From a virus, in IMG/VR virus record IMGVR_UViG_3300027721_000029, positions 1 through 42,224 of that record: 42,224 bases of DNA; one strand, given 5' to 3'. Below, one piece after another: positions 1,635 through 38,555 of this stretch; positions within the stretch are counted from its first letter, which is position 1; the number at the start of each line of letters is the position of its first letter. The notes under the pieces are model-generated. The model was given only the letters and a program-made list of their open reading frames with translations, had not been told where the DNA came from and did not search any database. Made by a program: the position numbers and the translations under genes.

Positions 1635-2026
1635 TGAACACAATCACCAACGGCAACGACCTGCCAGTATGCAGCGACGGCCAGCGATTGACGCTGCTGG
1701 AGCCGATCGAAATCATTATGTGGTGCGGTGGCACCCATGCTAAGCGATACCTTCGGGCCGATTTTGCATGGGACGGCGCTAGCATCCCGTGGTGGTCACA
1801 GTGGATTTTTGGGCATCCTCTTTCGCCTGAATATCGCTGGGCGTCCCTGTGGCATGACATCGGCTGCAGTGAGGCTCAGTGTATCGAGGACAGGACAATC
1901 GCAGACGCGGTTTTTTTGCGGCTGCTGAAAGAGGCTGGCGTAGGCAAGTATCGACGGCTGGCCATGTGGTCGGCGGTCCGGGTTTATGGGATTTGGGTTT
2001 GGAGGTGCAGGCGTGGCACAAGCTGA
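1634..2026 (+). CDS. DUF1353 family protein
   Basis: 130 residues. FAWDGASIP (residues 44-52), LWHD (72-75) and a later basic R-x-x-A-D-x-x-F followed by GVGKYRRLAMWSAVR are the recognisable DUF1353 core. The family is common in phages, often near lysis genes, and has no established function; conserved Asp and His residues suggest a metal or hydrolase site, which is inference. The last ~25 codons lie in a 70 bp segment duplicated 382 bp downstream, where an in-frame remnant of this C-terminus is kept (see direct repeat). Confidence 0.8.
   Translation: MNTITNGNDLPVCSDGQRLTLLEPIEIIMWCGGTHAKRYLRADFAWDGASIPWWSQWIFGHPLSPEYRWASLWHDIGCSEAQCIEDRTIADAVFLRLLKEAGVGKYRRLAMWSAVRVYGIWVWRCRRGTS
1949..2018 (+). 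repeat. 70 bp direct repeat, copy 1
   Basis: Matches 2331-2400 at 68 of 70 bases (mismatches at 1952 and 2010). It contains the 3' coding end of the DUF1353 gene and the ribosome site (GGAGG) and GTG start of the following gene. Confidence 0.95.
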
Positions 2027-2336
2027 GAGTGTGATTTGCACGCTGGTTCTGACTGGGGCGCACTCGTGCGACATTAGCCCAGTGTTACGGGCAACAAAGT
2101 GGGCTGAGTGGTACCAAGACGCATCGCAAATGCACGATGATTGGGACGGCGAACTGATCATAAGCCTGCCGATTGCGTCGTTACAAGAGGCACAAGAGGC
2201 GCTGCAGTTGACCAGTGGCGTGAAGTGCAGTCTCGGCAGGCAGTTGTGTTTTGTTTCACGCGGCGAAAAAATAGCGCACGTGTGTTTAGCTGACAGCGGC
2301 CAAGGGTGGCAGGAATTATCGGGTTCATTTTATTGA
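2013..2336 (+). CDS. Hypothetical protein, apparent inserted gene
   Basis: 107 residues from GTG at 2013, chosen because TTGGAGGTG gives a ribosome site seven bases upstream; an in-frame ATG at 1986 would also be possible. No family recognised. The start signals lie in the first copy of the 70 bp repeat, and the stop codon (2334-2336) falls at the beginning of the second copy. The gene therefore looks like an insertion between the DUF1353 gene and the gene at 2395. Confidence 0.65.
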   Translation: MAQAESVICTLVLTGAHSCDISPVLRATKWAEWYQDASQMHDDWDGELIISLPIASLQEAQEALQLTSGVKCSLGRQLCFVSRGEKIAHVCLADSGQGWQELSGSFY

Positions 2337-2400
2337 CGGCTGGCCATGTGGTCGGCGGTCCGGGTTTATGGGATTTGGGTTTGGAGGTGCAAGCGTGGCA
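2331..2400 (+). repeat. 70 bp direct repeat, copy 2, with gene remnant
   Basis: Second copy of the element at 1949-2018. In the DUF1353 reading frame it still encodes the tail RLAMWSAVRVYGIWVW and then CKRGK, with a stop at 2403-2405. This looks like the ancestral DUF1353 end overlapping the GTG at 2395. Confidence 0.95.
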
Positions 2401-2850
2401 AGTAAACTGGTGGATGATTTTTTCAAGGTCGTGGCGAACAAAACCGGGGCGATGGTCTGCGAAGGTGACGAGGGTCAGACGGTCCAATTCGATCCGGTAA
2501 CTATCCTTTCGTTGATTAGTACGATTGGTCCAATACTGATCAATTTTGTGAAAAAATGTCGCAGAATTGACAACGACCAAGAAGTGCAGCGGTCAGTGTC
2601 TGAGCACAACTCAGACGCGAAGTTGTCATCAAAACAGCGGAACGCCGGTGCGTCGAAGATCTTGGCAGAATGTCGAAGGCTACGCGGCGAGGAACGCCGG
2701 AAAGCGAAGAAGACCGGACTGCCTGCAGACGTCGGTCGATACCAAATTGACACGCCAGCGGCTCTAAGAATCGTTGACCATGGCATCGGTACGTTCACGA
2801 CGCTTCCGGCGGCCAAAGCGACAGCAATCGTGGCAGCCTGTAAGGAGTGA
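2395..2850 (+). CDS. Hypothetical protein with hydrophobic segment
   Basis: 151 residues from GTG at 2395, set by the GGAGG site inside the duplicated segment. Residues ~33-50 (VTILSLISTIGPILINFV) could be a membrane helix; the C-terminal half is basic and then ends in a compact hydrophobic part. A small phage membrane protein near DUF1353 and a peptidase could belong to lysis, but no holin family is recognised. Confidence 0.6.
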   Translation: MASKLVDDFFKVVANKTGAMVCEGDEGQTVQFDPVTILSLISTIGPILINFVKKCRRIDNDQEVQRSVSEHNSDAKLSSKQRNAGASKILAECRRLRGEERRKAKKTGLPADVGRYQIDTPAALRIVDHGIGTFTTLPAAKATAIVAACKE

Positions 2851-2855
2851 TTGCG

Positions 2856-3551
2856 ATGCAGATTCTGCTGCTGTTGTGCTGTCTGTTTCAGCCACCGACT
2901 ATCGACTTCCCTGAAGGCATGCGACCGCCGAAACAGGAGATCGAGGAGGCTCCTCAACCGCCTGAGGTCGATGAGTTTGCGACTGATGAACTCTACCTGA
3001 TTCAATCGGACAGTGGCCTGCATGTGATACCGTCACCTCCCGGAGTCGTGCAGGTCACTGCCGTTAAATCGGGGTCAGTTATCTTCAGCAAATTCGCTGG
3101 CGGTCGTGGGTTGGAAGAACGGCAGGTCACACGGTCAAACGGCTATGTCTTGCGAGGACTGGCAGCAGGGTCTGTGGAATTGATAATCTTACCTGCGGGA
3201 AGTCAGGATCTGTCAGACATGCGGCGGCGAGTTCTGACAGTCAAGTCGATTCAGCATGTCGATCCGATCACGCCAAAGCCTGACATTCCAGCCGATGACG
3301 TGGCAGCGGCTTTCCGGGCGTATGAGAGAGCGTGGAGAGCGGCACAGGGAGACTTGGCGGACAGGTTAGAACGCGGCGAAATCACGTCCGAAGCGATGGC
3401 GGCTGAATGGTTCAGTGCGGCGAATCTGCAGGCACGGAAAGACTCTTTTCTGCCATTGCTTCGGGCTGAGTCTATTGAGTTCGGCGGCGATAGTTGGACC
3501 GCGCAAAAACATGCTGCATGGATCAGGAGGTATGCCAATGCCAGGAAGTAA
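2856..3551 (+). CDS. Hypothetical exported protein
   Basis: 231 residues. The N-terminus MQILLLLCCLFQPP is a short signal-like hydrophobic stretch (possible lipoprotein, with Cys at 8-9), followed by a proline/glutamate-rich linker, a middle part of predicted beta strands, and a helical C-terminus rich in Ala, Arg and Glu. ATG 2856 is preferred to GTG 2847 because AAGGAG (2842-2847) is then spaced correctly. Family not recognised. It precedes the papain-like peptidase gene by an overlap. Confidence 0.65.
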   Translation: MQILLLLCCLFQPPTIDFPEGMRPPKQEIEEAPQPPEVDEFATDELYLIQSDSGLHVIPSPPGVVQVTAVKSGSVIFSKFAGGRGLEERQVTRSNGYVLRGLAAGSVELIILPAGSQDLSDMRRRVLTVKSIQHVDPITPKPDIPADDVAAAFRAYERAWRAAQGDLADRLERGEITSEAMAAEWFSAANLQARKDSFLPLLRAESIEFGGDSWTAQKHAAWIRRYANARK

Positions 3552-4413: not shown

Positions 4414-4823
4414 GAATCATTCTCGGGTTGGCGGTGTGTTGCATGGTGTTGCCGTGGGTTCAATCTGCGGACGAGTCGCCCTCAGCGATTGCGGACGCGG
4501 TCACGTTGGCAAGCCGTGTGGCAGCGTTGGAAGCTCGTGTCACGGAGCTGGAGGCAAAAGCTGCCCCAAAGGCAGCAGCAGCAAAGCCGGTACTTGAGAT
4601 TCACACTGAAGATTGGTGCGCACCATGCAAGGTGCTGAAAGCGGATCTGGCGACGGCGGGAGAGCTGCCAGTGGAGATTCGGTTCGTGAAATTCTCGGGG
4701 CAGGTTCCGGCCTTTCGGTGGGTCGATTCGAGCGGGAAGCAGGTCACGCGGACAGGGTATTCACGGGGAACGCTGAGCGGCATTGTGTCGGCTTGTCTTG
4801 CGTCTGCGTCAGTCCGCGACTAG
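4410..4823 (+). CDS. Exported thioredoxin-fold protein
   Basis: 137 residues. Residues 1-20 form a signal peptide ending in VQSA-DE. Residues ~30-58 are an Ala/Glu-rich coiled coil. The thioredoxin fold starts at ~60 with strand VLEIHT and the redox motif WCAPC (69-73), followed by a helix, a strand (EIRFVKF) and a VPAF cis-proline-like element. It is shorter than a full thioredoxin. Expected to act in the periplasm as a disulfide reductase or isomerase, or in a modified envelope. Its last 31 bases, including the stop, are repeated perfectly at 5138-5168. Confidence 0.75.
   Translation: MRIILGLAVCCMVLPWVQSADESPSAIADAVTLASRVAALEARVTELEAKAAPKAAAAKPVLEIHTEDWCAPCKVLKADLATAGELPVEIRFVKFSGQVPAFRWVDSSGKQVTRTGYSRGTLSGIVSACLASASVRD
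4793..4823 (+). repeat. 31 bp direct repeat, copy 1
   Basis: Covers the final codons of the thioredoxin gene (LASASVRD and stop). Identical over 31 bases to 5138-5168. Confidence 0.95.
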
Positions 4824-4836: not shown

Positions 4837-5130
4837 ATGATAACATTCAAAGAATTAAACGTGGCAGACGTGATGACGGAATCATCATCATCTGAGAGTC
4901 ATACGCTGGGAAATATCTCTGTAAAATGTCCGGTGTGCGGTAGCGAGTATGTAAGCGTTGCGAACATGCGGGAAGTGAGCGGGGAAGACAACTACAAAGC
5001 AGGCTGGTGGGGCCGTGGGGACCTGAATGTGATTGGGTTTGTGGGTGAATGTGGCCATGAATTCGATTTGTGTTTTGGGTTTCACAAAGGCAATACGGCG
5101 GCCTTTTGCCGGATTGCAGTGGACGAATGA
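4837..5130 (+). CDS. Zinc-ribbon-like hypothetical protein, apparent inserted gene
   Basis: 97 residues. KCPVCG (Cys31, Cys34) and ECGHEFDLCFGFHKG (Cys72, His74, later His) look like a small metal-binding ribbon followed by a beta hairpin. The same C-terminal pattern (GH-x-F/W...FHKG) occurs in uncharacterised phage and bacterial proteins. GGGGAG at 4823-4828 supports ATG 4837. The gene sits exactly between two copies of a 31 bp repeat of the thioredoxin gene end, so it looks recently inserted. Confidence 0.7.
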   Translation: MITFKELNVADVMTESSSSESHTLGNISVKCPVCGSEYVSVANMREVSGEDNYKAGWWGRGDLNVIGFVGECGHEFDLCFGFHKGNTAAFCRIAVDE

Positions 5131-5137: not shown

Positions 5138-5168
5138 TTGTCTTGCGTCTGCGTCAGTCCGCGACTAG
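5138..5168 (+). repeat. 31 bp direct repeat, copy 2
   Basis: Perfect copy of 4793-4823, including the in-frame LASASVRD codons and TAG stop, now without the rest of the thioredoxin gene. Confidence 0.95.
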
Positions 5169-5213: not shown

Positions 5214-5408
5214 ATGGGTGACGAGCAACAAAAAAAAGATGACGGAATCGACATCAATCTGCCAGGCTTTGAGGGGTCGGTTGACAAAGAAACCGCGCAG
5301 ACGTTGCTGAGTCACATTGGACCGGACTTGCGTTGGTTGGTGTATTCGGCATCAGCAGGACTGTTAGTTGTGGCAGTATGCTACGGAGTGTCATTGGTAT
5401 GGAACTGA
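5214..5408 (+). CDS. Small single-span membrane protein
   Basis: 64 residues: a charged N-terminus (GDEQQKKDDGIDIN) and one membrane helix near the C-terminus (WLVYSASAGLLVVAVCYGVSL). The start is uncertain: GTG 5208 and GTG 5218 are alternatives and the ribosome site is weak. It overlaps the next membrane gene by 10 bases. Its size, topology and position suggest a lysis-related protein (holin or antiholin), but no family is recognised. Confidence 0.55.
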   Translation: MGDEQQKKDDGIDINLPGFEGSVDKETAQTLLSHIGPDLRWLVYSASAGLLVVAVCYGVSLVWN

Positions 5409-5875
5409 GCACAGAATTTTACCGGGCGTTTGCAGTTTCGTGGCTATGCTTTGGAGCAGGGGCCTATATATTTCATGCGTATCGGTGGTGCCAATACGGC
5501 AAGGTGCTGTGCGGATTATTGCTGGCGTTATCGCCGGGCATTTTGTCAGCGTATGGCTATCACTCGGTTCAAGTTTGTAACACAATTTTAGCGGCGAAAA
5601 GCCAACGGGAGAATGTCAGTGGAAGAGTCTATCTTACAAGCATCGAACGAGCCGATTGCGGCGACGGATACGAAGTCACAGTTGAGCGCTACAGCAATGG
5701 AACCGCCAACTATTCCGGACAAATGCCAGATGCAGAAGGACGCACTGCGGGGAGCAATGCACGACTGCAAGATGGCGATGAAAAGACTCGGGGAATGTCA
5801 GGACGCATACTTTCGGTGCCAGTATGGCGTGAATTTGCAGGGCATCGGGACCGACACAAAGAACGCGACCTATGA
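5399..5875 (+). CDS. Putative membrane protein overlapping the next gene
   Basis: 158 residues from ATG 5399. Two hydrophobic segments (AFAVSWLCFGAGAYIFHAY and, after QYGK, VLCGLLLALSPGILSAYGY) suggest two membrane spans. After residue ~72 the frame runs for another 260 bases inside the gene at 5613, and this half is low-complexity and polar. Either the real product is short and something in the sequence truncates or shifts it, or the two frames are both translated. The N-terminal half is believable, the C-terminal half doubtful. Confidence 0.45.
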   Translation: MELSTEFYRAFAVSWLCFGAGAYIFHAYRWCQYGKVLCGLLLALSPGILSAYGYHSVQVCNTILAAKSQRENVSGRVYLTSIERADCGDGYEVTVERYSNGTANYSGQMPDAEGRTAGSNARLQDGDEKTRGMSGRILSVPVWREFAGHRDRHKERDL

Positions 5876-5981
5876 TGCCGCAATCCGGTGGCGAGCGATC
5901 GGGGCCAGTTCAGCGATTAACACAATGGGCATCGGTCTTGAGCAGATCAGCATTAATTCTGGCGTGAGGGTTGATGACTGA
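5613..5981 (+). CDS. Hypothetical protein
   Basis: 122 residues. CGGGAGA-type ribosome site just upstream of ATG 5613 (ACGGGAGAATG). It has a polar N-terminus, then a helical segment with spaced cysteines (KCQMQKDALRGAMHDCK, ECQDAYFRCQ). No family recognised. It ends in GVRVDD, and the 19 bases coding for RVDD, the stop and the next ATG are repeated at the end of the following gene. Confidence 0.6.
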   Translation: MSVEESILQASNEPIAATDTKSQLSATAMEPPTIPDKCQMQKDALRGAMHDCKMAMKRLGECQDAYFRCQYGVNLQGIGTDTKNATYDAAIRWRAIGASSAINTMGIGLEQISINSGVRVDD

Positions 5982-5983
5982 TG
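5965..5983 (+). repeat. 19 bp direct repeat, copy 1
   Basis: TGAGGGTTGATGACTGATG, identical to 6231-6249. It encodes RVDD, the stop and the overlapping ATG of the next gene. Confidence 0.9.
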
Positions 5984-6247
5984 GACGCATACGAAAAGGA
6001 ACGCAGCCAGTTAAGGGCGCACTCACTTGCCCTTCGCAAAATGCTCAAACGCCAGGCGGAACTGGAGGATCAGTTATTCGCCTGCGAGGCTGGCGAGCCG
6101 ATGGCAGCGATCCTTTCGCGACCTTCGCCGCTGATGGGGGAGCCAGACTGGGCGAACCGTTTTAAGGCGGAAAATTTGCGGAATTCGCGCGACGTGATTG
6201 ATGCGATGATGACGAATATCGCTAAGGCTTTGAGGGTTGATGACTGA
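5981..6247 (+). CDS. Hypothetical helical protein, apparent inserted gene
   Basis: 88 residues, starting in an ATG that overlaps the upstream stop (CTGATGG). The first ~35 residues are a charged helix (ERSQLRAHSLALRKMLKRQ). No family recognised. It ends in ALRVDD, mirroring the GVRVDD end of the gene before it because both ends are encoded by copies of the same 19 bp repeat. This bracketing suggests insertion or duplication of a gene-sized unit. Confidence 0.65.
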   Translation: MDAYEKERSQLRAHSLALRKMLKRQAELEDQLFACEAGEPMAAILSRPSPLMGEPDWANRFKAENLRNSRDVIDAMMTNIAKALRVDD

Positions 6248-6249
6248 TG
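6231..6249 (+). repeat. 19 bp direct repeat, copy 2
   Basis: Second perfect copy of the element at 5965-5983, carrying the end of the gene at 5981 and the start of the gene at 6247. Confidence 0.9.
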
Positions 6250-6690
6250 AATGAGCAGGCACTGGACACAGAATTGCGGCTACCGCAATACGCCACCATG
6301 AGCGATCAGCAGGCGGCTGATGCCGTGATGGCAAAGACAATCGCGGTCAGGTCGGAAGTCGACTCCGGCACACTGATGGATGCGGCGATGGCTCTCGGTG
6401 TTTGGGAGCGACTTGAGGCGGCAGCCCCTCCACAATCGACGGACCCTCCAGCACGATATGCACGCACCATGATGACGCGACTAAAGGAGACTCGGCCAGT
6501 CAATTTGGATCACCCGAGTGTGATCGCACTGGTGACAAACTGCGTGCAATATCAACTGATGACGCAGACCGAAGCAGGCACTCTAAACGCCTTGGGTGAT
6601 ACAGTCGTCCGGTGGGTTGATTACAGCGGGATCGGTGAAGTTGGTGTTGGTGCCGTAATCAATTCGCGCCGCAGAATTGCAGGTGGATAA
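6247..6690 (+). CDS. Hypothetical phage protein
   Basis: 147 residues, start overlapping the previous stop (CTGATGAATG). Mixed helical composition without signal or membrane segment; the centre (LDHPSVIALVTNCVQYQLMTQ) is predicted helical. Its stop overlaps the ATG of the next, tail-like gene. I do not recognise the family. Position suggests a virion-related or chaperone role, without direct evidence. Confidence 0.65.
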   Translation: MNEQALDTELRLPQYATMSDQQAADAVMAKTIAVRSEVDSGTLMDAAMALGVWERLEAAAPPQSTDPPARYARTMMTRLKETRPVNLDHPSVIALVTNCVQYQLMTQTEAGTLNALGDTVVRWVDYSGIGEVGVGAVINSRRRIAGG

Positions 6691-7190
6691 TGCCAAATAA
6701 CATCCTGATAAAATACGGCAGCAAAACCACAATCACGGCGGCAGTGGCGAGCCTTGCAAGCGACACGAATCTGCTGGCCGGTATCGAGTCGAGCATTATC
6801 GACAACAGTACAGACGGCTTTTCAGACATCCTGGTCAGCGGCAAGGCGACAGCAGGCACAAGCCCGACTGCATCACGGCAGATTGAGGTCTGGGCTGTGG
6901 CTTGGGACGGGGCTAACTGGCCGGACGTGTTTGATGGAACAACGAGCGGCGAGACGATCACCAGCAGCGACATCAAAAACGCGATCTGTAAAGCGGTTGC
7001 GGTTATGTCAACGAGCGCCACATCAGACAGAGCATACCATTTTACGGGGGCCAGTTTGCGACAGGCTTTTGGTGGGGAACTGCCTTCAAAAATGGTTTTA
7101 TTCGTCGCGCATAACACAGGCGTCGCTCTTAACGCAACGGCGGGAAATCATGAGTTTTCGTATGTCGGCGTTTATCCGCAGGTGCAATGA
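6690..7190 (+). CDS. Putative virion/tail-associated protein
   Basis: 166 residues, rich in Ser, Thr, Ala and Gly, with alternating strand-like segments (VLFVAHNTG, HEFSYVGVYP near the end). This composition is typical of phage tail or fibre-associated proteins. The neighbours on the right are LamG-like and BppU-like proteins. No family recognised. Confidence 0.6.
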   Translation: MPNNILIKYGSKTTITAAVASLASDTNLLAGIESSIIDNSTDGFSDILVSGKATAGTSPTASRQIEVWAVAWDGANWPDVFDGTTSGETITSSDIKNAICKAVAVMSTSATSDRAYHFTGASLRQAFGGELPSKMVLFVAHNTGVALNATAGNHEFSYVGVYPQVQ

Positions 7191-7951
7191 TGGCGTTAGG
7201 TGATAACGTGATTGGCTGCTGGAACCCAACTGCGAAAGCGACTGGGCTTGCGTTGCTGGATTATTCAGTACGTCGTAATCACGGCACGTTCAATGGCATG
7301 GATGTATCCGACTGGCGAGCGGCATCACCTCCGGGTCAAAGCGGCTTTGTGGTAAATGGCGATGCGACAAATAACAGGATTAGTACGGCACTACGGTTGC
7401 CCACGTCAAACATGACTTATGGCGGTTGGGTGCTTGGTCGTAATTTGACGGGTAGTCTTGGCGGCAACCGCCCATTTGGTGAGGCGGATTTGGCAGTCGG
7501 GCTATCTGGCAGTAGCCTTTTGCTTCGCACTGGGGGCCCGTATGTTGTGTTTCGCGGCGGAAGCGCAGGTGACATAAACGCCAGTAGTACAGTCAGCAAT
7601 AATGTGTGGTATTTATTTGTCGTGGTGCTGGGGTCGCGGCCAGAGGTATACCAGAACGGCGTACTGGTTGGATCTGGCACAGGCACGACGATTGCCAGCC
7701 GTAATATCGGGTTTCAGATTCTGAGTGACGATATAGTCGGTTTAGCAAGCGGCATAAACGGGCTGGTAGGTGAGGTTACTGTGTGGAATAGAGCACTGAA
7801 AGCGGCTGAGATTCGCCAGTGGTATGTGGGCGGAAACGGGGCCGTGTATAGGGCACTGACGACACGGCGGCGGACGTATGGATTTGTTGCGGCTGGCTTC
7901 CGGCCGTACTGGTCACAACAGCGAACACAATTGATCGGCGGAGGATTGTAA
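7187..7951 (+). CDS. LamG/concanavalin-like jellyroll protein, putative receptor-binding
   Basis: 254 residues. The N-terminus VIGCWNPTAKATG...LLDYSVRRNHGTFNGM is the classic opening of LamG-like jellyroll (laminin G/concanavalin A lectin) domains, and EVTVWNRALKAAEI near residue 200 is the classic closing segment. Such domains bind carbohydrates. In phages they are found in tail tips and fibres and attach to cell-surface glycans. The arginine-rich tail (TTRRRTYGFVAAGFRPYW) is outside the fold. Likely part of the host-recognition apparatus. Confidence 0.75.
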   Translation: MMALGDNVIGCWNPTAKATGLALLDYSVRRNHGTFNGMDVSDWRAASPPGQSGFVVNGDATNNRISTALRLPTSNMTYGGWVLGRNLTGSLGGNRPFGEADLAVGLSGSSLLLRTGGPYVVFRGGSAGDINASSTVSNNVWYLFVVVLGSRPEVYQNGVLVGSGTGTTIASRNIGFQILSDDIVGLASGINGLVGEVTVWNRALKAAEIRQWYVGGNGAVYRALTTRRRTYGFVAAGFRPYWSQQRTQLIGGGL

Positions 7952-8859
7952 TGTACCCGAGAAACGCAGCGAGTCCGCCACGAATCAGTATCGGTGCAGT
8001 CGTGCAGATTTCCGATGGTGCTGTGCAGACGGCTGGCGTGGCCGTGAAGGTCATTCCGCAGGGCGGCAGCGAAGCCAGTGGATCGGGGACCGTGGCGTAC
8101 TCAGCCGACGGCGTGGTTCTGTATACGCCAACGCAGGGCGAAACCAATTACACGGCGATGGTGTTTGTGGCCAGTAAGACAGGCTGCATTCCGGCGACGG
8201 TCACAGTGGTCACATCAGCAAGCGAGACTCCAGGTTATGCCGGGCTGGACTGGGCCAAGGTTGGCAATCCGACAACGGCAGTGGCATTGAGTAGCACGAC
8301 GATCAGCACGAGCCAGGCGGTGGGGAGCGTGAGCGGTGCGGTGGGATCAGTGGTTGCACGAGTCACTGCGAACACAGATCAATGGGGCGGAGTGTCGGTG
8401 ACTGGTATGCCGTTGCCTACCAGCAGTTACACGACACCACCAACAGTAGCACAGGTCGTCACTGGGGTCTACGCAGCATTGCCAGCCGATCACACGGTAA
8501 GTGGGTCGTATGGCGTGCGATTTATTCTGGCGTTGAACAGTAACCGGACTGTGCAGGTCACAGGCAGTCACCACATTGCAGCAGACGTGCATGAGTTTCA
8601 GCCGAACGTGATTACGGCCGCAGCGCTGGCCGCAGACGCGGTCACTGAGATTCAGAGCGGACTGGCGACATCAGCCAATCAGACACTGATTCTCGACCGT
8701 CAGGGGTTTGCGCTGGCCGTACTTGCCGGCACGATATCGGATGCGCAAACAGCGGCAGAAACCTACTCGATCACAATCAGCGGCAGTACTTACACGGTTG
8801 ATTTTGCAGGGCTGGACGCAAGCGGTAATCGCAGCGGGCAGACGCTGGTGAAGACATGA
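7951..8859 (+). CDS. Putative tail fibre or baseplate-associated protein
   Basis: 302 residues, beta-rich, with an Ig-like N-terminal part (residues ~10-90, VAVKVIP...ATVTVVTSA), a low-complexity Ser/Thr/Val stretch (ISTSQAVGSVSGAVGSVV) and a segment ALAADAVTEIQSGLAT of a kind often seen in phage tail proteins. No enzymatic motif. It overlaps the LamG-like gene by one base (TAATG) and the next gene by four. Confidence 0.6.
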   Translation: MYPRNAASPPRISIGAVVQISDGAVQTAGVAVKVIPQGGSEASGSGTVAYSADGVVLYTPTQGETNYTAMVFVASKTGCIPATVTVVTSASETPGYAGLDWAKVGNPTTAVALSSTTISTSQAVGSVSGAVGSVVARVTANTDQWGGVSVTGMPLPTSSYTTPPTVAQVVTGVYAALPADHTVSGSYGVRFILALNSNRTVQVTGSHHIAADVHEFQPNVITAAALAADAVTEIQSGLATSANQTLILDRQGFALAVLAGTISDAQTAAETYSITISGSTYTVDFAGLDASGNRSGQTLVKT

Positions 8860-30870: not shown

Positions 30871-30902
30871 CCCCCTCCCAAAAAGAGGGGGAATTTTATT
30901 TT
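30871..30902 (+). terminator. Intrinsic terminator
   Basis: CCCCCTC-CCAAAAA-GAGGGGG (30871-30891) followed by AATTTTATTTT. Differs from its neighbours in stem bases on both arms yet keeps pairing. Confidence 0.88.
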
Positions 30903-30925
30903 CTAAAATTCTTCAGATTCAGCCC

Positions 30926-30953
30926 TTGCAATTTCCGATAATGAAATTATACT
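30926..30953 (+). promoter_or_regulatory. Cassette promoter P4 (TTGCAA-16-TATACT)
   Basis: TTGCAA (30926-30931) and TATACT (30948-30953), spacer with dyad AATTTC-7-GAAATT as in P1. Leader stem-loop TCAGAC-ACGA-GTCTGA at 30961-30976. Confidence 0.85.
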
Positions 30954-31003
30954 TCACTCATCAGACACGAGTCTGACACACAACACACACAGGGGGCAGG
31001 ACG

Positions 31004-31363: not shown

Positions 31364-31374
31364 TTTCACACTTC

Positions 31375-31402
31375 CCCCCGTCAATCGGCGGGGGTTCATT
31401 TT
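31375..31402 (+). terminator. Intrinsic terminator, no promoter behind it
   Basis: CCCCCGTC-AATC-GGCGGGGG (31375-31394) with one G-U pair, followed by a T-rich stretch. The next start codon (31430) is only 35 bases away and no promoter fits between. Confidence 0.8.
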
Positions 31403-31429
31403 CAATCTTTTAGACAGGGGAAACACACA

Positions 31430-31711
31430 GTGCAAGCAACAAAAGTAAAGACATCAATCCTGACGGCAACCGGGCTGATTTCGCACACAACGGAGTTTTA
31501 CCGCTCCGAGGATTGCGGCTATTCTGCTGGGCGATTAGTGGCTGATCTGCCCGGCGGCGAAACTGTCTCTGTCAGCAAAGATGGCAAGGCATGGATCGTC
31601 TCAACAATTCGCGGCGGTATCGGGGTGCGGTCTGAGTCATTTCCCACCAAAGCTGTCGCGCTGAATACTGTGGCATCGCGTGCGATGCAGTTGGCGATGT
31701 GTACAGACTGA
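31430..31711 (+). CDS. Small hypothetical early protein 5
   Basis: 93 residues from GTG (AGGGGAAACACACAGTG). Beta-strand pattern (SILTATGLISHTTEFYRS; ETVSVSKDGKAWIVSTIRGGIGV) then a helix with ALNTVASRAMQLA. No family recognised. Reached only by read-through of the preceding terminator. Confidence 0.6.
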   Translation: MQATKVKTSILTATGLISHTTEFYRSEDCGYSAGRLVADLPGGETVSVSKDGKAWIVSTIRGGIGVRSESFPTKAVALNTVASRAMQLAMCTD

Positions 31712-31754
31712 CGGACAATTTTCACAACACACACACATAATCAGGATGATTTCG

Positions 31755-31913
31755 ATGAGTTCTCAAAAGGTCGGAAGACCGCGCAAACACAAGCCGGATG
31801 CGGTGACCTGCTTGGTCCGCATTCCGAAGCCGCTGATGGATCGGCTCGACAAGATCGGGCCAACGCGGCAGGCCGCGATTCTGGCAGCGGTCGAACGGGG
31901 CATGGCACGGTAA
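31755..31913 (+). CDS. Tiny ribbon-helix-helix protein with AT-hook-like N-terminus
   Basis: 52 residues. GRPRKHKP (7-14) resembles an AT-hook, which binds the minor groove of AT-rich DNA. The rest (VTCLVRIPKPLMDRLDKI, then TRQAAILAAVERGMA) has the strand-helix-helix layout of ribbon-helix-helix repressors such as Arc/CopG. ATG 31755 is preceded by CAGGATGATTTCG. A dimer would bind short dyads; the conserved AT-rich dyad inside the cassette promoters is an obvious candidate target, by inference. Confidence 0.65.
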   Translation: MSSQKVGRPRKHKPDAVTCLVRIPKPLMDRLDKIGPTRQAAILAAVERGMAR

Positions 31914-31924
31914 GGTACAACACT

Positions 31925-32024
31925 CCCCGCACACAGCACATGGATAGCGTGCAAAGTCAGCAAGGTGCTGACTGGTGAGCTGATCCCTTACGCCGTATTA
32001 TGCGGCTGTGCGGGGTGTTTTTTT
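31925..32024 (+). ncRNA. Cloverleaf-like structured RNA ending in a U tract
   Basis: CCCCGCACA (31925-31933) pairs with TGTGCGGGG (32007-32015), closing three inner hairpins: GCAC/GTGC (31936-31939, 31949-31952), AGTCAGC/GCTGACT (31955-31961, 31967-31973) and GCCG/CGGC (31992-31995, 32003-32006). The last abuts the closing stem as in tRNA, and TGTTTTTTT follows. It lacks tRNA-defining bases (no U33, no TTCRA loop, 9 bp closing stem). It may be a small RNA, a leader switch, or an elaborate terminator before the gene at 32047. Confidence 0.5.
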
Positions 32025-32046
32025 GACACAACAGAAAGGGGCGACG

Positions 32047-32496
32047 ATGAACGACACGAAACTAGGTGACTATGTCTTGGCATCAGCCGAAAAGGACGGC
32101 AGGCCTGAAGCTGCGTGGGCTTGCGGCTATGTGGTTGGCATTCGACACGATGGCAAAACGCGGCTGACAGTGCTGGCAGAAACGCCAAACGGCAAGCCGG
32201 TGAGTGAGTGGCGTTGGGCAAGGCCGATCACGCCGCAACAGGGCGAGGACATCGCCCTGATGGTTGAGGACAATCTGACAGGCCGGAGCGTCTGGCAGAT
32301 GCGACGGGAATTGGTTTCACTTCGCATTACTGATCCCACACCTGCTGAGATTGCGGAACGGGCTGCAGATATTCGGCGGGAATGGACACTCGATGAGCAC
32401 TTGCGGCGTGGTGGTTGGATGACACCAGCATACGAAATGCCGACATGCAATATGGAAGCGCTGACGGGTGTTGGCGGTCATGGGGTGAGTCTGTGA
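32047..32496 (+). CDS. Hypothetical early protein upstream of csrA
   Basis: 149 residues. An N-terminal beta part (GDYVLASAEKDGRPEAAWACGYVVGI) looks SH3-like; the C-terminal part has helices (TLDEHLRRGGWMTPAYE). Leader GAAAGGGGCGACGATG directly follows the U tract of the structured RNA. Its stop overlaps the GTG of the CsrA gene, giving translational coupling. Confidence 0.6.
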   Translation: MNDTKLGDYVLASAEKDGRPEAAWACGYVVGIRHDGKTRLTVLAETPNGKPVSEWRWARPITPQQGEDIALMVEDNLTGRSVWQMRRELVSLRITDPTPAEIAERAADIRREWTLDEHLRRGGWMTPAYEMPTCNMEALTGVGGHGVSL

Positions 32497-32690
32497 AGTC
32501 TGAAAAAAACTGGTTAGTTTTGGGCCGAAAGGCTGGAGAAGAAATCTGCATTGGTGACGACATCCGGGTAAAGGTCGTGTCGAAAGACGGCTCGACTTTT
32601 CGGATTGCGATACACGCCCCTGGTGGCGTGAAAGTGTTGCGTGGTGAATTGTTTGAACGTTCAAAAACACAAAAGGGGACAGAGCAGTGA
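32493..32690 (+). CDS. csrA: CsrA/RsmA-family RNA-binding regulator
   Basis: 65 residues. LVLGRKAGEEICIGDDIRVKVV (8-29) and FRIAIHAPGGVKVLRGELFE (36-55) follow the whole CsrA fold (E. coli LILTRRVGE..MIGDEV...VRIGVNAP..V.VHREEI). The RNA-contact arginines appear as Arg12 and Arg50; the residue before the second one is Leu in place of His. A six-residue extension precedes strand 1. CsrA dimers bind GGA motifs near ribosome sites and change translation or stability. The leaders of the phage's small genes contain GGA beside the start codon, so they are candidate targets. GTG start overlaps the previous stop. Confidence 0.85.
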   Translation: MKSEKNWLVLGRKAGEEICIGDDIRVKVVSKDGSTFRIAIHAPGGVKVLRGELFERSKTQKGTEQ

Positions 32691-33628
32691 ACGACATTGA
32701 AGACGCATTCGGATACACGGAACAGGTGGAGCAGCCACCAGCGGAAACAAGTCGCGAGACTCAGTTAACAGAACTGTATCAAGTCAAGGCTGATGCACTG
32801 GCAACGGTGCGACCGTTGAAGGAATTGACGGTCGAAGTGCACGGGCTGAAGAAGGTCGTCGAGGGTCGGAAAGCCGTGGTCAAGTTGCGGACGTCGATCG
32901 ACAAGCGGCGAAAGCTGTTGAATGAGGAAGCCAAGAAATGGATTGACACCGTCAACGGAGTGGCGAAGGAAATCGGGGCGATCATTGAGCCAGTTGAGAT
33001 TCACCTAAAGCATCAAGAGGCACTACACGAGGAACAGCAACGTCAGGCAGCAGAGGCCGAGCGAGTCGAGCGGGTGGCCGTTCGACGAATGTCATGGCCG
33101 GAGAATGCAGGGGCGTTTCCCGAGTCTGAAGCGGGGTCACTGACAGCACTGGAATGGACCTCGTTCACGTTCGAGAAAGTAAAGGCGGAGAACGCCAGAC
33201 GACAGGAGGAAGCACAGCGAGCGGCGGAACGTGCGGAGCTTGAAGAACTGCGACGGGCGAAAGCTGAAAGTGACCGCCGAGAGGCTGAGGCATTGGCGGA
33301 GAAACATGTAGCAGAAGAGACTGCAAGACAGGCCGAACTAGTCCGACAACAATCAGCAGAAGCCGAACAGAGTCGCATCGCACGCATAGCCAAAATGTGG
33401 GACGATCACGAACAGGAGCTGGCAGTCACAGAGGCGGCAATCGAGGCCGATATTCTGCCGTTGAATCTCCCCGTAGTAGAACAACGAAAGCCCGTCATTT
33501 ACTCCGTCAGTGACAGGCTAACGAAGTTTGAGGAACTCAAGTCCGCACTGCGTGAGCTGCTGCAAATGCAGGGCGATGTTGATTGGCGTGGAATGGTCAG
33601 GGAAGCACTGGAGGATGCAACCGTATGA
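32687..33628 (+). CDS. Long coiled-coil protein (DUF1351-like)
   Basis: 313 residues. Residues ~30-120 (KELTVEVHGLKKVV; RKLLNEEAKKWIDTVNGVAKEI; EPVEIHLKHQEALHEE) match the helical pattern of phage DUF1351-type proteins, found beside recombination genes. Then comes a very long Ala/Glu/Arg coiled coil (~165-245) and a C-terminal helical domain. Starts at GTG overlapping the csrA stop. Probably an accessory to the recombination set (RusA, Sak4-like, DUF669) that follows. Confidence 0.65.
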   Translation: MNDIEDAFGYTEQVEQPPAETSRETQLTELYQVKADALATVRPLKELTVEVHGLKKVVEGRKAVVKLRTSIDKRRKLLNEEAKKWIDTVNGVAKEIGAIIEPVEIHLKHQEALHEEQQRQAAEAERVERVAVRRMSWPENAGAFPESEAGSLTALEWTSFTFEKVKAENARRQEEAQRAAERAELEELRRAKAESDRREAEALAEKHVAEETARQAELVRQQSAEAEQSRIARIAKMWDDHEQELAVTEAAIEADILPLNLPVVEQRKPVIYSVSDRLTKFEELKSALRELLQMQGDVDWRGMVREALEDATV

Positions 33629-34053
33629 CGACGTGGAACATCACAATCTTCGGGCAGCCTGCGGGTATGCCGAGGGCACGTAGCGTTCGGACAAAATGGG
33701 GCGGCATTCGGCATTACATTCCGCAAAAGTCGCCTGGCGTTGTTTACCGCAGTATTGCGGCAAAGCTATCGGCAAGAAAGCCAAAACTGGAAGGGCCGGT
33801 CCGGGTCACAATTGGGTGCGTTTTTGAAATGCCGAAAAGCTGGACGAAAGCGAAAAAGTTGAAGCACGACGGGCAACCGCACACACAGAAGCCGGACGCC
33901 GACAACATCGCAAAAGCGATACTCGACGGGCTTAGCGAGTGCTGGCCTGACGATGCAGTGGTGTGGGAATTGATTGTTCGAAAAGTGTGGGGCCAACATG
34001 GCTCGACAGTGGTTTTTGTCACCGACACATTAACAGGGGAATACACACCGTGA
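33625..34053 (+). CDS. rusA: RusA-family Holliday junction resolvase
   Basis: 142 residues. ITIFGQPAGMPRAR (6-19), PVRVTIGCVFEMPKSW (58-73), then KPDADNIAKAILDGLSECWPDDAVV (89-113) with Asp91, Asp93 and Asp109/110: the metal-binding PDxDN...D-D signature of RusA. Resolves branched recombination or replication intermediates, probably before packaging. GGAGG supports ATG 33625. Overlaps the Sak4-like gene by four bases. Confidence 0.88.
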   Translation: MTTWNITIFGQPAGMPRARSVRTKWGGIRHYIPQKSPGVVYRSIAAKLSARKPKLEGPVRVTIGCVFEMPKSWTKAKKLKHDGQPHTQKPDADNIAKAILDGLSECWPDDAVVWELIVRKVWGQHGSTVVFVTDTLTGEYTP

Positions 34054-34853
34054 AGATTACAAGAGGCAAAAAGATCGTACCGCGAAGGGTGCTGTTGTAC
34101 GGCACGCATGGGATAGGGAAAAGCAGTTGGGCTGCACAGGCTCCGGACGTGCTGTTTCTGAATCTGGAAGACGGCTTGAACGACATCGACGTCGCGAAGA
34201 CGGAACATCTGATTCGTCTGGAACAAGTGATGGAAGCGTTGACGTTTTTGGCCACGCAGAAGCACGATTTCAAATGGGTTGCAATTGATTCGGTCGACTG
34301 GCTGGAAGCCCTGATTCACGCCGAGGTGGCACGAGAGGCCGGGAAACCGACAATCGGCGATATCGGCTACGGTGCCGGATACAAATCAGCAATGGCATAC
34401 TGGGACAAGATCCTGACAATGCTGGACTGGTTGCGCACAGAATCCGAGCGGAAACTGGGTGTGATTTTGCTGGCCCACACAGCGGTCAAGAAGTACACCG
34501 ATCCGATGACGGATTCATACGACAGGTATCAACCTGCACTGCACGAGACAGCAGCGGCAACGCTTCAGGAATGGTGCGATGAAGTACTGTTTGCGTCCTA
34601 TCGCGTTCACACTCGCAAGCAGGATGAGGGCTTCGGCAAGGAACGGATAATTGCCGGAGGATCTGGCGAACGGCTGATCCGTTGCACGGAAACGCCTGGA
34701 GCGCTGGCGAAAAACAGGCTGACGATGCCAGAGACGATCGACTTTTCGTGGGCGGCTTACGCTCAGTATTTCACACAGGCTGCTCCGGCGGCAAATATTG
34801 GTGGCATTGTGGTTGATGGTAGTTCAAAAAAATTGGAGGTGACCAATGGCTGA
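34050..34853 (+). CDS. Sak4-like RecA-fold ATPase (AAA_24)
   Basis: 267 residues. Walker A GTHGIGKSSW (18-27), a Walker B-like strand WVAIDSVDWLE (76-86) and GVILLAHTAVKKYTDP later, the pattern of the phage nucleotide-binding AAA_24/Sak4 family. Such proteins are single-strand annealing recombinases working with an SSB. The DUF669 gene immediately after, an SSB-like family, supports this. GTG start overlaps the rusA stop. Confidence 0.82.
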   Translation: MKITRGKKIVPRRVLLYGTHGIGKSSWAAQAPDVLFLNLEDGLNDIDVAKTEHLIRLEQVMEALTFLATQKHDFKWVAIDSVDWLEALIHAEVAREAGKPTIGDIGYGAGYKSAMAYWDKILTMLDWLRTESERKLGVILLAHTAVKKYTDPMTDSYDRYQPALHETAAATLQEWCDEVLFASYRVHTRKQDEGFGKERIIAGGSGERLIRCTETPGALAKNRLTMPETIDFSWAAYAQYFTQAAPAANIGGIVVDGSSKKLEVTNG

Positions 34854-35319
34854 TTTGATGGGATTTGATGCGGCAAAAGTGGAACCGAACGAGCCAGCAT
34901 CGGCAGTGCCGAAAGGCGAGTATCAAGTGATTATCGTGGAAAGCGAAAAGAAGCCAACAAGCAAGGGCGATGGATCTTTGCTGAACATGGTGCTGCAGAT
35001 TGTTGAAGGCCAGTTCAAGGGCAGGAAACTGTACGACAGGCTGAATCTGTGGAACAAAAACGAACAGGCGGCGAAGATTGCACAGGGCACGCTGTCGGCT
35101 ATTTGTCGGGCGGTGAATGTGTTGACACCACACACGAGCGAGCAGCTCCACAATCGAACGCTGACGGCTGTGGTGGACGTGTCAGAGTACCAGGGCAAGT
35201 TGAGGAATGAGGTGAAGGGCTACAAGTTAAAACAGACTGGCGTTGTGCCACCTGTCACGGTGACAGCGACCGGCGAACCGGTGGCGACAAGCGGCAAGCC
35301 AAACCCGTTTGGCATGTAG
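34846..35319 (+). CDS. DUF669 (SSB-like) protein
   Basis: 157 residues. PKGEYQVIIVESEKKPTSKGDGSLLNMVLQIVEGQFKGRKLYDRLNLWNKNEQAAKIAQGTLSAIC covers residues ~22-87 and is the DUF669 core. Such proteins are thought to act as single-strand DNA-binding partners of Sak4-like recombinases. The short C-terminus NPFGM is reminiscent of SSB tips. Overlaps the ATPase gene by eight bases; a strong terminator follows. Confidence 0.8.
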   Translation: MADLMGFDAAKVEPNEPASAVPKGEYQVIIVESEKKPTSKGDGSLLNMVLQIVEGQFKGRKLYDRLNLWNKNEQAAKIAQGTLSAICRAVNVLTPHTSEQLHNRTLTAVVDVSEYQGKLRNEVKGYKLKQTGVVPPVTVTATGEPVATSGKPNPFGM

Positions 35320-35352
35320 TTGCTCCGGTTGTGTGTCAGACTTCGACATCAT

Positions 35353-35387
35353 GCCCGGCAGTGGTCACACACTGCCGGGCTGTTTTT
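35353..35387 (+). terminator. Strong intrinsic terminator between DUF669 and helicase genes
   Basis: GCCCGGCAGTG (35353-35363) and CACTGCCGGGC (35370-35380) form an 11 bp stem, loop GTCACA, then TGTTTTTT. Only 17 bases separate the U tract from the helicase GTG start, so the helicase must rely on read-through or on a promoter inside the upstream gene. Confidence 0.9.
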
Positions 35388-35404
35388 TGCGGAAAGGGAT
35401 ACAG

Positions 35405-37111
35405 GTGCAGGCGAGATATTATCAGGACGCGGCGAATCATGCGGCGTGGGAATGGATGGCGTCAGGCCGAGGGAATCCGCTAATTGTACTGCCGACAGCG
35501 GCTGGGAAATCGGTGGTGATTGGCATGCTGATTCGCCAAGCGTTGGAATTTAATCAGCAGGTGCTCTGTCTTGCCCATCGCAAAGAACTGCTCGTTCAAA
35601 ACGCCGAGAAGATAGCGGAGATGGCAGGCGTGCAGGTCGGACTGAATTCGGCTGGCCTTGGTCGGCATGATTTCGATTCTGCGGTCATTTGTGCCGGGAT
35701 TCAATCCGTCTATCGAAAGGCCTTAGACTTCGGGGCACGTGGCTTGATCCTGATTGACGAGGCCCACCTGATTTCGGGCGATGCGGAAAGCATGTACGGC
35801 CAGTTCTTGGCAGACCTGCGGCGAGTCAATCAACGGCTTTTTGCTGTTGGCCTGACAGCTACTCCGTTCCGGACTGGGGAGGGGTTGATTGCTGGGAAGG
35901 ATAAACTGTTCAGCGGCATCTGCTACGAGTCGATGACGGGCACGCTGATTTCAGAAGGGTATCTGTCCGCGCTGACCAACAAACCTGCTGATAGCACAGT
36001 CGACACGAGTCGGGTTTCGATTCGTGACGGCGAGTTTGTTGTGGCTGAAATGGAGCGGGTTTTTTCTGGTGATTCGAACGTAACTTTAGCCTGCAGTGAG
36101 ATTGTAAACGCATGTGCTGGGCGTCGGTCGATTTTGGTTTTTTGTGCTGGCATTGCTCATGCCGAGCAAGTTCAGGCTACACTGCAGGTGATGACGGGCG
36201 AAGTCGTCGAAGTCGTTACCGGCGAAACAGACAACATGACACGCAGCCGGATTCTCAGTGACTTTCGGAACGGGGCACTTCGGTGGTGCGTAAACGTCGA
36301 TGTACTGACGACTGGTTTTGATGCTCCTCGGATTGATGCGCTGGCTGTCTTGCGTGCGACAATGTCCCCAGGGCTGTTCGCGCAGATTGTCGGGCGAGGA
36401 CTGCGCAAGGCAGACGGCAAAGAAGATTGTTTGGTGTTGGATTTCGGGGGGAACATCGCACGGCATGGAAGTCTTGATTCTCCGGACTATGGACGCTACA
36501 CGGGCGGCAAAGGTTGGACCAAAGGCGAGCCGGTCGAACGTGAGGGAGCAGGTGGAACGAAGGTCTGTGACAAATGCCGCATTGAGTGTGCGGCACGGTC
36601 TGCTTTCTGTCCTGAGTGCGGCTGGGCGTTTCCTGTCAATCATGAGGGGACAGCAGACACCGAAAGCAAGATCACTGGCAAGCCGGAACCGGAGTTGTAT
36701 GTGGTCACTTCGGTTGATTGGCATCGCCACGAGAAGAAGCGAGATCCTGACGCGGTGCCCAGTCTTTGCATCACCTACAACTGCTATCCGGAGAGTCGTG
36801 GCGAGGGCAATTTGACGGGAACCGTGGTGCGTGAGTGGGTGTGTATTGAGCATGAAGGTTTTGCGCGGCAAAAGGCTGTCGGCTGGTGGCAATGTCGCAG
36901 CATTCAGGAAGTTCCTTCGACAGTCGTCGAAGCGGTGGATATGCTGCACCGGGGAGCCTGTAGGCAAGCGACTCGCCTGTGGGTAGTGCCTGAGGGCAAG
37001 TGGCCGAAAATCGTGCGGGTTGAATTTGATGACGAGATTCCCGAGACTATGGCCGAGCCTGTCGAGGTGACAGGACCGGCGGAAGTGGATGAAGACTGGG
37101 TGCCGTTTTAA
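35405..37111 (+). CDS. SF2 DEAH helicase with C-terminal zinc ribbon
   Basis: 568 residues. Motif I LPTAAGKSVV (29-38), motif Ia LCLAHRKELLVQN, motif II LIDEAHL (116-122), motif III LTATPFR (150-156), motif V TTGFDAPRIDAL and motif VI QIVGRGLRK. Then a zinc ribbon CDKC...CPECGWAF and a C-terminal extension. This matches RadD/YejH-like or type III restriction-type helicases, here without a nuclease domain. Probable replication or repair helicase. GTG 35405 was chosen (AAAGGGATACAG upstream); the longer frame starting at 35309 would contain the terminator and overlap the DUF669 gene. Confidence 0.85.
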   Translation: MQARYYQDAANHAAWEWMASGRGNPLIVLPTAAGKSVVIGMLIRQALEFNQQVLCLAHRKELLVQNAEKIAEMAGVQVGLNSAGLGRHDFDSAVICAGIQSVYRKALDFGARGLILIDEAHLISGDAESMYGQFLADLRRVNQRLFAVGLTATPFRTGEGLIAGKDKLFSGICYESMTGTLISEGYLSALTNKPADSTVDTSRVSIRDGEFVVAEMERVFSGDSNVTLACSEIVNACAGRRSILVFCAGIAHAEQVQATLQVMTGEVVEVVTGETDNMTRSRILSDFRNGALRWCVNVDVLTTGFDAPRIDALAVLRATMSPGLFAQIVGRGLRKADGKEDCLVLDFGGNIARHGSLDSPDYGRYTGGKGWTKGEPVEREGAGGTKVCDKCRIECAARSAFCPECGWAFPVNHEGTADTESKITGKPEPELYVVTSVDWHRHEKKRDPDAVPSLCITYNCYPESRGEGNLTGTVVREWVCIEHEGFARQKAVGWWQCRSIQEVPSTVVEAVDMLHRGACRQATRLWVVPEGKWPKIVRVEFDDEIPETMAEPVEVTGPAEVDEDWVPF

Positions 37112-37123
37112 GGAGGGGTTTTA

Positions 37124-37351
37124 GTGGGTGATAGTAAACAAGTTGGTGGCGATCATTATAGCAAAATGGCTGTGCAACCGTGGGATGTTATGCGGTCATG
37201 TTTTACGCCTGCTGCGTTCGCTGGGTTCCTCACTGGGAACGTGATTAAGTATGTGATGCGAGCGAACGCAAAAGGTGGCATTGAAGACTTGAAGAAAGCA
37301 CAGCACTATCTGGACGAGTTGATAAGGTATCTGGAGGAGCCAAAACAATGA
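37124..37351 (+). CDS. DUF3310 (SaV-like) protein
   Basis: 75 residues. VGGDHYSKMAVQPWDVM, then FLTGNVIKYVMRANAKGGIEDLKKAQHYLDELI is the DUF3310 signature, found in many phages as part of, or next to, nucleotide-metabolism genes. Function unsettled. GTG start with AAGGAGGGG upstream; overlaps the next small gene by four bases. Confidence 0.85.
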   Translation: MGDSKQVGGDHYSKMAVQPWDVMRSCFTPAAFAGFLTGNVIKYVMRANAKGGIEDLKKAQHYLDELIRYLEEPKQ

Positions 37352-37491
37352 GCGGTGACATCGCGGAGTATTGTCTGGATCTGATGTGGTTGATCGGATG
37401 CCCGGTAGTGGTGTGGTCAGCTTGGCAATGTGTGCGGCTGTGGTGGTCGGTGAATGAATTTTGCAGGGAGTGCGGCGATGGGCTGGATTGA
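37348..37491 (+). CDS. Tiny membrane-like protein
   Basis: 47 residues, ATG overlapping the DUF3310 stop (AATGAGC), GGAGG a little upstream. Central hydrophobic stretch LMWLIGCPVVVWSAW, then a CREC motif near the end. Overlaps the following tiny gene by 14 bases. Function unknown. Confidence 0.5.
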   Translation: MSGDIAEYCLDLMWLIGCPVVVWSAWQCVRLWWSVNEFCRECGDGLD

Positions 37492-37576
37492 AATTCTGAA
37501 ATTGGTCGGATTTGTGGCTGCGGCTATCGTTTTCGCCGAGGCTATTGTCAGGCTGTTAATTGATCCGGAGATGTGA
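37478..37576 (+). CDS. Tiny single-span membrane protein
   Basis: 32 residues, mostly one hydrophobic helix (LVGFVAAAIVFAEAIVRLLI). GGGAG lies eight bases upstream of ATG 37478. The stop codon starts the TGAAAAC hairpin shared with 29807. Probably a small inner-membrane peptide; role unknown. Confidence 0.5.
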   Translation: MGWIEILKLVGFVAAAIVFAEAIVRLLIDPEM

Positions 37577-37592
37577 AAACACTGGGTTTTCA
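37574..37592 (+). terminator. Hairpin overlapping the stop codon, twin of 29807-29825
   Basis: TGAAAAC-ACTGG-GTTTTCA, base for base identical to 29807-29825 and likewise starting on a stop codon ahead of a promoter cassette. Confidence 0.55.
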
Positions 37593-37633
37593 GCAATTTG
37601 AATTATTCTTACGGAAATTCTTTGGAATCGGGC

Positions 37634-37661
37634 TTGCAATTTCCGATACAGATATTACACT
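37634..37661 (+). promoter_or_regulatory. Cassette promoter P5 (TTGCAA-16-TACACT)
   Basis: TTGCAA (37634-37639) and TACACT (37656-37661), same TTTCCGATACAGATAT spacer as P2. The leader stem-loop is longer here: CCCC-A-TCAGAC (37664-37674) pairs with GTCTGA-C-GGGG (37682-37692), one mismatch. Confidence 0.8.
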
Positions 37662-37726
37662 TCCCCCATCAGACAACACAAGTCTGACGGGGACAACACA
37701 ACACAACAACACAAGGGATCAGGACA

Positions 37727-37939
37727 ATGAGCACAACCTACACGACAATCGGCAGCGTACGCGGATGCTGTGGTCACAAGCACAGGACAATTGAAGCGGC
37801 AGTGGACTGTATCAAGCGGGATCAGTCTGGCTGCAGAAGTCAGGGTGGATATTCAGACCGTAACGTTCGGTATTCCGGCGGCGAAGAATTGAGTGCGAAC
37901 GAGCAGGAATATGTGCATCACCTGCACTACAGTCGATAG
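37727..37939 (+). CDS. Small hypothetical early protein 6
   Basis: 70 residues. RGCCGHKHRTIEAAVDCIKRDQSGCRSQGGYSDRNV has Cys and His spaced as in a small metal-binding protein and resembles hypothetical proteins from other phages (CGHxHRT...AxxC...GC...GGYSDR). Promoter P5 and leader ACACAAGGGATCAGGACAATG. Terminator at 37955 follows. Confidence 0.65.
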   Translation: MSTTYTTIGSVRGCCGHKHRTIEAAVDCIKRDQSGCRSQGGYSDRNVRYSGGEELSANEQEYVHHLHYSR

Positions 37940-37954
37940 TCTTCAAGTCTTTTC

Positions 37955-37981
37955 CCCCGCTGGATCGTCCGGCGGGGTTTT
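37955..37981 (+). terminator. Intrinsic terminator, start codon close behind
   Basis: CCCCGCTGGA-TCG-TCCGGCGGGG (37955-37977, one T-G pair) followed by TTTTTC. ATG 38012 comes 31 bases later with no promoter between. Confidence 0.85.
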
Positions 37982-38011
37982 TCTGGCACACAACACACAA
38001 GGGACACAACA

Positions 38012-38212
38012 ATGCTCAAAGCAACCGTAGTACACGGCAGCATCAGCCAGCACCACAGCATCGAGGTGAGTGACGATTTGCGAACGGCAAAGCGGCAGGC
38101 AGTACTGCAATTTGGAATGGGTTTTGTCGACCACACAATCCGGATTTACGACGCTGAAACTCGGGAGACGATCAGCGAGCGGCGAATCGGTGGCATCAAG
38201 TGGAGTCGGTAG
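38012..38212 (+). CDS. Small hypothetical early protein 7
   Basis: 66 residues. Strand-helix-strand pattern: LKATVVHGSISQHHSIEVS, LRTAKRQAVLQFG, DHTIRIYDAETRETISERRI. Leader ACACAAGGGACACAACAATG. No family recognised. Another terminator follows at 38227. Confidence 0.6.
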   Translation: MLKATVVHGSISQHHSIEVSDDLRTAKRQAVLQFGMGFVDHTIRIYDAETRETISERRIGGIKWSR

Positions 38213-38226
38213 GTTTCCGGGTTCAT

Positions 38227-38253
38227 CCCCTCCTGCGTGGAGGGGTTTGTTTT
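38227..38253 (+). terminator. Intrinsic terminator, start codon close behind
   Basis: CCCCTCC-TGCGT-GGAGGGG (38227-38245) followed by TTTGTTTT. ATG 38279 is 26 bases downstream. Confidence 0.85.
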
Positions 38254-38286
38254 CAACACTATTTCAAGGGGTAGGGCGATGAGCGA
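38251..38286 (+). repeat. ~36 bp direct repeat, copy 1
   Basis: Begins TTTCAACACTAT and ends ATGAGCGA. About 29 of 36 bases match 38520-38555. Carries the leader and start of the gene at 38279. Confidence 0.7.
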
Positions 38287-38536
38287 GATACACACAATTG
38301 ACGTAGATGACACCCGATATCTTCCAGGCGACAGCCGCAGGGCAGGCGGGCTAACTGTGTCAGCGGTCGTCACGGTTGACTGCCAGGGCATTGCATGGGG
38401 TACGCTTGTCGAGGCCCGAAATACACAGGAGCGGGAAGGCGATGAGCCTCCACGGCAGTGTGATGTTGATTACGGTTTGCGCCTGCTGGAACAGCTGCTT
38501 TCGACTTGCGATTTTTACAATTTCAACACTATCTGA
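38279..38536 (+). CDS. Small hypothetical early protein 8, bracketed by repeats
   Basis: 85 residues. Beta-rich first half (GGLTVSAVVTVDCQGIAWGTLVEA) and helical second half (DYGLRLLEQLLSTCDFYNFNTI). Its final codons (FNTI, stop) are encoded by the second copy of the repeat that also surrounds its start, the same arrangement seen for three genes in the left arm. No family recognised. Confidence 0.6.
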   Translation: MSEIHTIDVDDTRYLPGDSRRAGGLTVSAVVTVDCQGIAWGTLVEARNTQEREGDEPPRQCDVDYGLRLLEQLLSTCDFYNFNTI

Positions 38537-38555
38537 GAGGGCAGGACAATGAGCG
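38520..38555 (+). repeat. ~36 bp direct repeat, copy 2
   Basis: Imperfect copy of 38251-38286, holding the last codons of the gene at 38279 and the leader and MSE start of the gene at 38549. Confidence 0.7.

Follow-up and report, generated by a model that had tools for sequence, protein, structure and literature searches.

Gene insertions flanked by direct duplications of gene boundaries in a phage genome

The gain of a single gene between tightly packed phage neighbours has so far been largely inferred from old, blurred boundaries. The 42,224-base virus record analysed here, which we refer to as the window and in which open frames serve as gene calls, raises the question of how such a gain proceeds when the boundaries can still be read. 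A first-pass annotation had claimed that at four junctions of this record, J1 to J4, one gene (X1 to X4) is bracketed by direct repeats, and had proposed a single process behind all four events. When direct repeats were recomputed on the window, all four pairs were recovered at the claimed sites, and a frame search found one open frame in each of the four inserts, so this description of the locus holds. Chance was rejected as the source of the repeats because 20 shuffled windows yielded none at a score of at least 19 and a spacing of 120-1500. At J1, J2 and J3 the repeats that flank the inserted gene contain gene ends. The idea of one process stands in part: the same outcome is reached with different sequences at several junctions, but the four junctions fall into different classes: recent self-duplication at J1 and J2, a gene-end duplication within a mosaic of several phages at J3, and an older case at a leader for J4. 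The repeat copies and inserted frames at J1 to J4 all lie on the + strand.

The relatives used to read these junctions came from scans of IMG/VR and comprise three full records, G001 (L002), G002 (L004) and G003 (L007), together with shorter ones. Window positions of about 1-2018 are 89% identical to G001 and 85% identical to G002. A search of the phage collection with the first 20 kb of the window found no near match, and a search for relatives with A2, the gene upstream of J2, returned only records already known.

At J1, the first repeat copy (1949-2018) holds the end of a DUF1353-like gene, A1, together with a Shine-Dalgarno sequence and a GTG start used by X1 (2013-2336, 107 aa). The second copy (2331-2400) carries the Shine-Dalgarno sequence and GTG start of the next gene, B1 (2395-2850). 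The start codon of X1 is thus the GTG that in copy 2 serves B1, and the left edge of copy 2 supplies the TGA stop of X1, indicating that X1 borrows its start region; these start and stop positions also suggest that X1 may be a piece of a longer gene. The two 70-nt copies agree at 68 of 70 positions (97%). Both G001 and G002 lack X1 and possess one repeat copy each, and window segments 1-2018 and 2331-3550 align to the same 70 bases of G001 (65 in G002). A further relative, G005, has a single copy followed by a different gene. The window copies, which are 2 bases apart and differ from G001 at 2 and 4 positions, share one haplotype that is found in no relative. Tandem duplication of the downstream gene was considered and rejected, since X1 and B1 show no likeness by eye. 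No usable relative of X1 was recovered by IMG/VR pattern scans, tblastn against INPHARED and plasmids, or comparison with PDB sequences.

J2 presents the same arrangement with a different sequence. Copy 1 (4793-4823) is the last 31 nt of A2, a thioredoxin-like gene, and ends exactly at its TAG stop; X2 (4837-5130, 97 aa) follows with its own GGGAG ribosome site, and copy 2 (5138-5168) no longer lies within any evident gene. The copies are identical at all 31 positions (100%), and differ from the single copies in G001, G002 and G003, all of which lack X2, at 11, 10 and 10 of these positions, respectively. Their haplotype is absent from every relative. Copies that are identical to each other yet diverged from relatives are to be expected only after recent copying of one from the other, in the window lineage or a very close one. 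The gene downstream of J2 begins some 40 bases past copy 2, and the duplication was therefore not needed to save it; since neither neighbour required the duplication, selection alone does not explain J2. X2 shows weak zinc-ribbon similarity, and its only match among PDB sequences was of the zinc-finger type; IMG/VR pattern scans, INPHARED tblastn and PDB sequences provided no usable relative.

The prediction that relatives without the middle gene should have a single repeat copy was borne out at J1 and J2 by all relatives covering each site, which identifies both as gene gains. Judged by comparison of these sequences, the duplicated stretch at J1 and J2 is the recipient's own gene boundary, and both gains are recent.

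J3 is a composite. The upstream gene, Y (5613-5981, +), is a distant homologue of the N-terminal part of the gene that occupies the Y locus in G002 and G003, with about 36% identity over 77 aa to that part of the G003 allele, which we call donor-type. The first repeat copy (5965-5983) contains the end of Y (VDD stop) and the ATG of X3 (5981-6247). X3 opens with six codons like those of the gene after Y in G001 and continues with 82 codons of the G002/G003-type Y-locus allele, corresponding to the C-terminal 82 residues of the gene at Y's place in G002 (67% aa identity) and G003 (84%). The second copy (6231-6249), a Y-type end that carries the ATG of the next gene, B3, is 100% identical to the first over 19 nt. 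Although the end of the donor-type allele is similar to the repeat, the two can be distinguished, and copy 2 is Y-type rather than donor-type at both diagnostic positions. A single-copy site was found only in the diverged, more distant record L011, where a Y-like gene is followed directly by B3. As read from these alleles, J3 joins at least two related phages out of register, and is probably a mosaic drawn from three. Recombination with related phages, as the first-pass annotation suggested, is the likely route, J3 having a recognisable donor-type allele; for X1 and X2 donors were not found. At the same locus, frames 5333-5875 and 5613-5981 overlap by about 260 nt in different reading frames. 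G001 retains both, a comparable overlap of frames is present at the corresponding place in G002 and G003, and the two are possibly a spanin-like pair.

The J4 repeat, in turn, lies in a start leader. Copy 1 (38251-38286) contains the leader, ribosome site and start of X4 (38279-38536, 85 aa), and copy 2 (38521-38556) contains the leader and start of the next gene as well as the stop codon of X4; over about 36 bp the copies are 81% alike. G002 has no X4 and one leader copy, L010 has X4 with both copies, and X4 is partly present in L007. Leaders of this type (AGGGATCAGGACAATGAGC) also occur elsewhere in G002 and L010, indicating that the J4 repeat is in part a conserved start signal. The J4 insertion is older, is shared with L010 and sits in a start leader that recurs.

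Window 38923-41445 encodes an 840-aa helicase-N6/N4-methylase fusion. L010 lacks this gene around position 5259; the two sequences there differ cleanly by 2.5 kb and have only 8 nt in common at the junction. A search of genome contigs found no relative of the fusion gene. The truncated frame with which the window ends (41744-42224) looks by eye like a ThyX-type thymidylate synthase. The window record lacks a stretch of about 3 kb which G001 has between the sequences matching the two ends of the window. The ends of the G002 record (L037-L039) share an exact 127-bp direct repeat, which suggests that the G002 genome is complete, and circular or terminally redundant.

Independent insertions of the same form occur in other phages. 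In L033, a 37-nt repeat containing GGAGG (6483-6519 and 6895-6931) flanks a 129-aa frame and is single at the empty sites in L014 and L023. L019 carries two inserts (4189/4582 and 10681/10884) with repeats of 20 and 17 nt over the ribosome site and start, and these repeats are single in L017 and L016. In L010, successive small genes at 6983-9370 share a C-terminal tail, GNSPTNLE, and a start, while zinc-ribbon and other modules are swapped; here modules are apparently shuffled at gene ends. Most of these repeats cover the Shine-Dalgarno sequence and start of the next gene.

In a uniform indel scan, 8 of the 13 window-group rows that are not leaders had flanking duplications of at least 14 nt, as against 1 of 13 (a leader) in a T7-like group (Fisher p 0.011), a comparison of few and not fully independent rows, two of the window-group rows being probably one event, between groups that differ in divergence. 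About 4 of 14 rows had such a duplication in the L033 group. In the T7-like controls, closely spaced repeats are almost without exception promoters or leaders, and in mycobacteriophages flanking duplication is a minority outcome. The scan recovered gene 68 of mycobacteriophage Island3 as a positive control (duplication of 58); the close-repeat finder missed this gene, probably through its complexity filter. Boundary-duplicating insertion is real and recurrent.

What produces this outcome? We consider it likely, with a probability of roughly 0.6, that the genes were gained by out-of-register recombination of the template-switch type between co-infecting related phages, filtered by selection. 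A growing strand of the recipient, or an annealed fragment, would leave the recipient template close to the border of a gene, copy some coding DNA of another phage and re-enter the recipient template upstream of the exit point, so that the approximately 20-70 nt between return and exit would be duplicated. The order A-R-X-R-B with a recipient-type repeat R fits such upstream re-entry. Selection would then keep those products in which the end of gene A and the ribosome site and start of gene B are intact, since it is by preserving these that a product would survive, and the duplication would often equip the incoming gene with a duplicate ribosome site and start codon. The window encodes a Sak4-like single-strand annealing protein (AAA_24 / phrog_124; 33963-34853, +), a candidate recombinase, adjoined by a DUF669 / single-strand-binding-like protein (34846-35319, +), and the presence of these two genes makes their products plausible agents. 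Sak4 is described as annealing single strands (PMC5928155), and annealing proteins of this type as able to recombine diverged DNA (PMC5499656).

The same R-X-R order would also arise if an unseen close relative already carried both repeat and gene, and the window lineage acquired them by exchange, or if a circle integrated by a single crossover, the repeat being the recombination site in either case. The authors of the closest precedent favour recombination within the repeat (PMC3029335), and the successive L010 genes with one tail fit repeated exchange at a shared end. A pre-existing donor repeat, however, transfers the question of how R-X-R first arose to another source, the IMG/VR scans recovered no viral contig that contains X1 or X2, and both J2 copies are of the recipient haplotype; we regard this reading as rather unlikely. 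More doubtful still is the view of the repeats as conserved start signals, or as mobile leader cassettes, between which genes shuffle. That description is true of an array of small frames at about 29806-31500, where a recurring leader some 70-120 nt long (CCTTGCAATTTCCGATA...) precedes each frame; the copy number of this leader varies among relatives, and the array looks like a set of mobile promoter/leader cassettes. The description is also true in part of J4, whose AGGGATCAGGACAATGAGC-type leader recurs in relatives. The J1 and J2 repeats, on the other hand, contain coding ends, are single in relatives and have only two copies each in the window rather than one at many starts. The start-signal reading is thus contradicted for J1 and J2, whereas J4, whose repeat is a recurrent start leader, goes part of the way towards the refutation that the first-pass annotation had named for itself.

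Fill-in of long staggered breaks, known in plant genomes, leaves variable-length duplications around an insert, and a dedicated system of this kind, with paired opposite-strand nicks, or a homing-type nuclease as the first-pass annotation proposed, could in principle account for the repeats. At the thresholds used, X1 to X4 matched no nuclease family and revealed no nuclease domain; nor was anything else found that the inserts share. The duplications range in length from about 17 to 70 nt and have different sequences, which is not what a fixed recognition site and cut stagger would leave. We therefore rejected a homing nuclease, and consider any dedicated system very improbable. Least credible is an origin of the repeats in metagenome misassembly. 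J1 to J3 do depend on a single assembly, an identical contig (L009) spanning only 30785-42224, and the J2 repeat is exactly identical; against this, the J1 copies differ at 2 bases, the boundaries fall at gene junctions, the inserts form complete frames whose codon use is phage-like and J4 is also present in the separate record L009.

Several of the window insertions are fresh enough for their polarity to be read and for the copied recipient boundary to be seen, making the recombination route testable. They suggest a rule, that the viable insertions at tight junctions are those which duplicate the junction, and such a rule could aid the annotation of new genes and chimeric frames in phages. 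We would put forward only tentatively, as a doubtful extension, that this is an unusually active route of gene birth in which annealing machinery repeatedly splices foreign fragments behind a fresh ribosome site and start; if so, even gene fragments such as X3, and perhaps X1, would become expressed frames with their neighbours unharmed.

Several known systems resemble parts of this picture. In T4-type phages, promoter cassettes are repeated start/leader elements near small genes. Start-Associated Sequences, described in Cluster K mycobacteriophages (PMC3203893), are, like these cassettes, repeated elements beside small genes and recall the leader array and J4 of the window, but they are multi-copy regulatory elements and not duplications of one gene boundary as at J1 and J2. 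The window also shares its Sak4-like and single-strand-binding-like genes with mosaic-making phages in which phage annealing proteins relax recombination, although those studies (PMC3945230, PMC5499656, PMC5928155) concern exchange of partly homologous DNA, whereas in the window the recipient boundary is duplicated.

The closest precedents overturn the first-pass statement that no such outcome had been described: Pope et al. (2011, PMC3029335) report gene 68 of Island3, with a gene-end repeat of about 60 bp that is single in Brujita, and genes 43-46 of LRRHood, with 29-bp repeats that are single in Cali, and read both insertions as recombination at repeats. A literature search for a systematic account found nothing beyond that paper. 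As in the window, Island3 has one small inserted gene and a relative with a single copy. Its repeat occupies the 3' end of the upstream gene and that of the inserted gene, inside both gene ends; several positions distinguish the copies, and gain and loss could not be told apart by the authors, whereas J1 and J2 have recipient-type repeats. The LRRHood insert likewise lies between direct repeats at a gene end, with relatives carrying one copy, but comprises four genes, including a repressor, over 1.35 kb, whereas the window inserts are mostly single small genes. The insertions at J1, J2 and J3 are of the same kind as those of Pope et al., to which the window adds clearer polarity, repeats of the recipient type, several cases in one lineage and, at J3, a donor-type allele.
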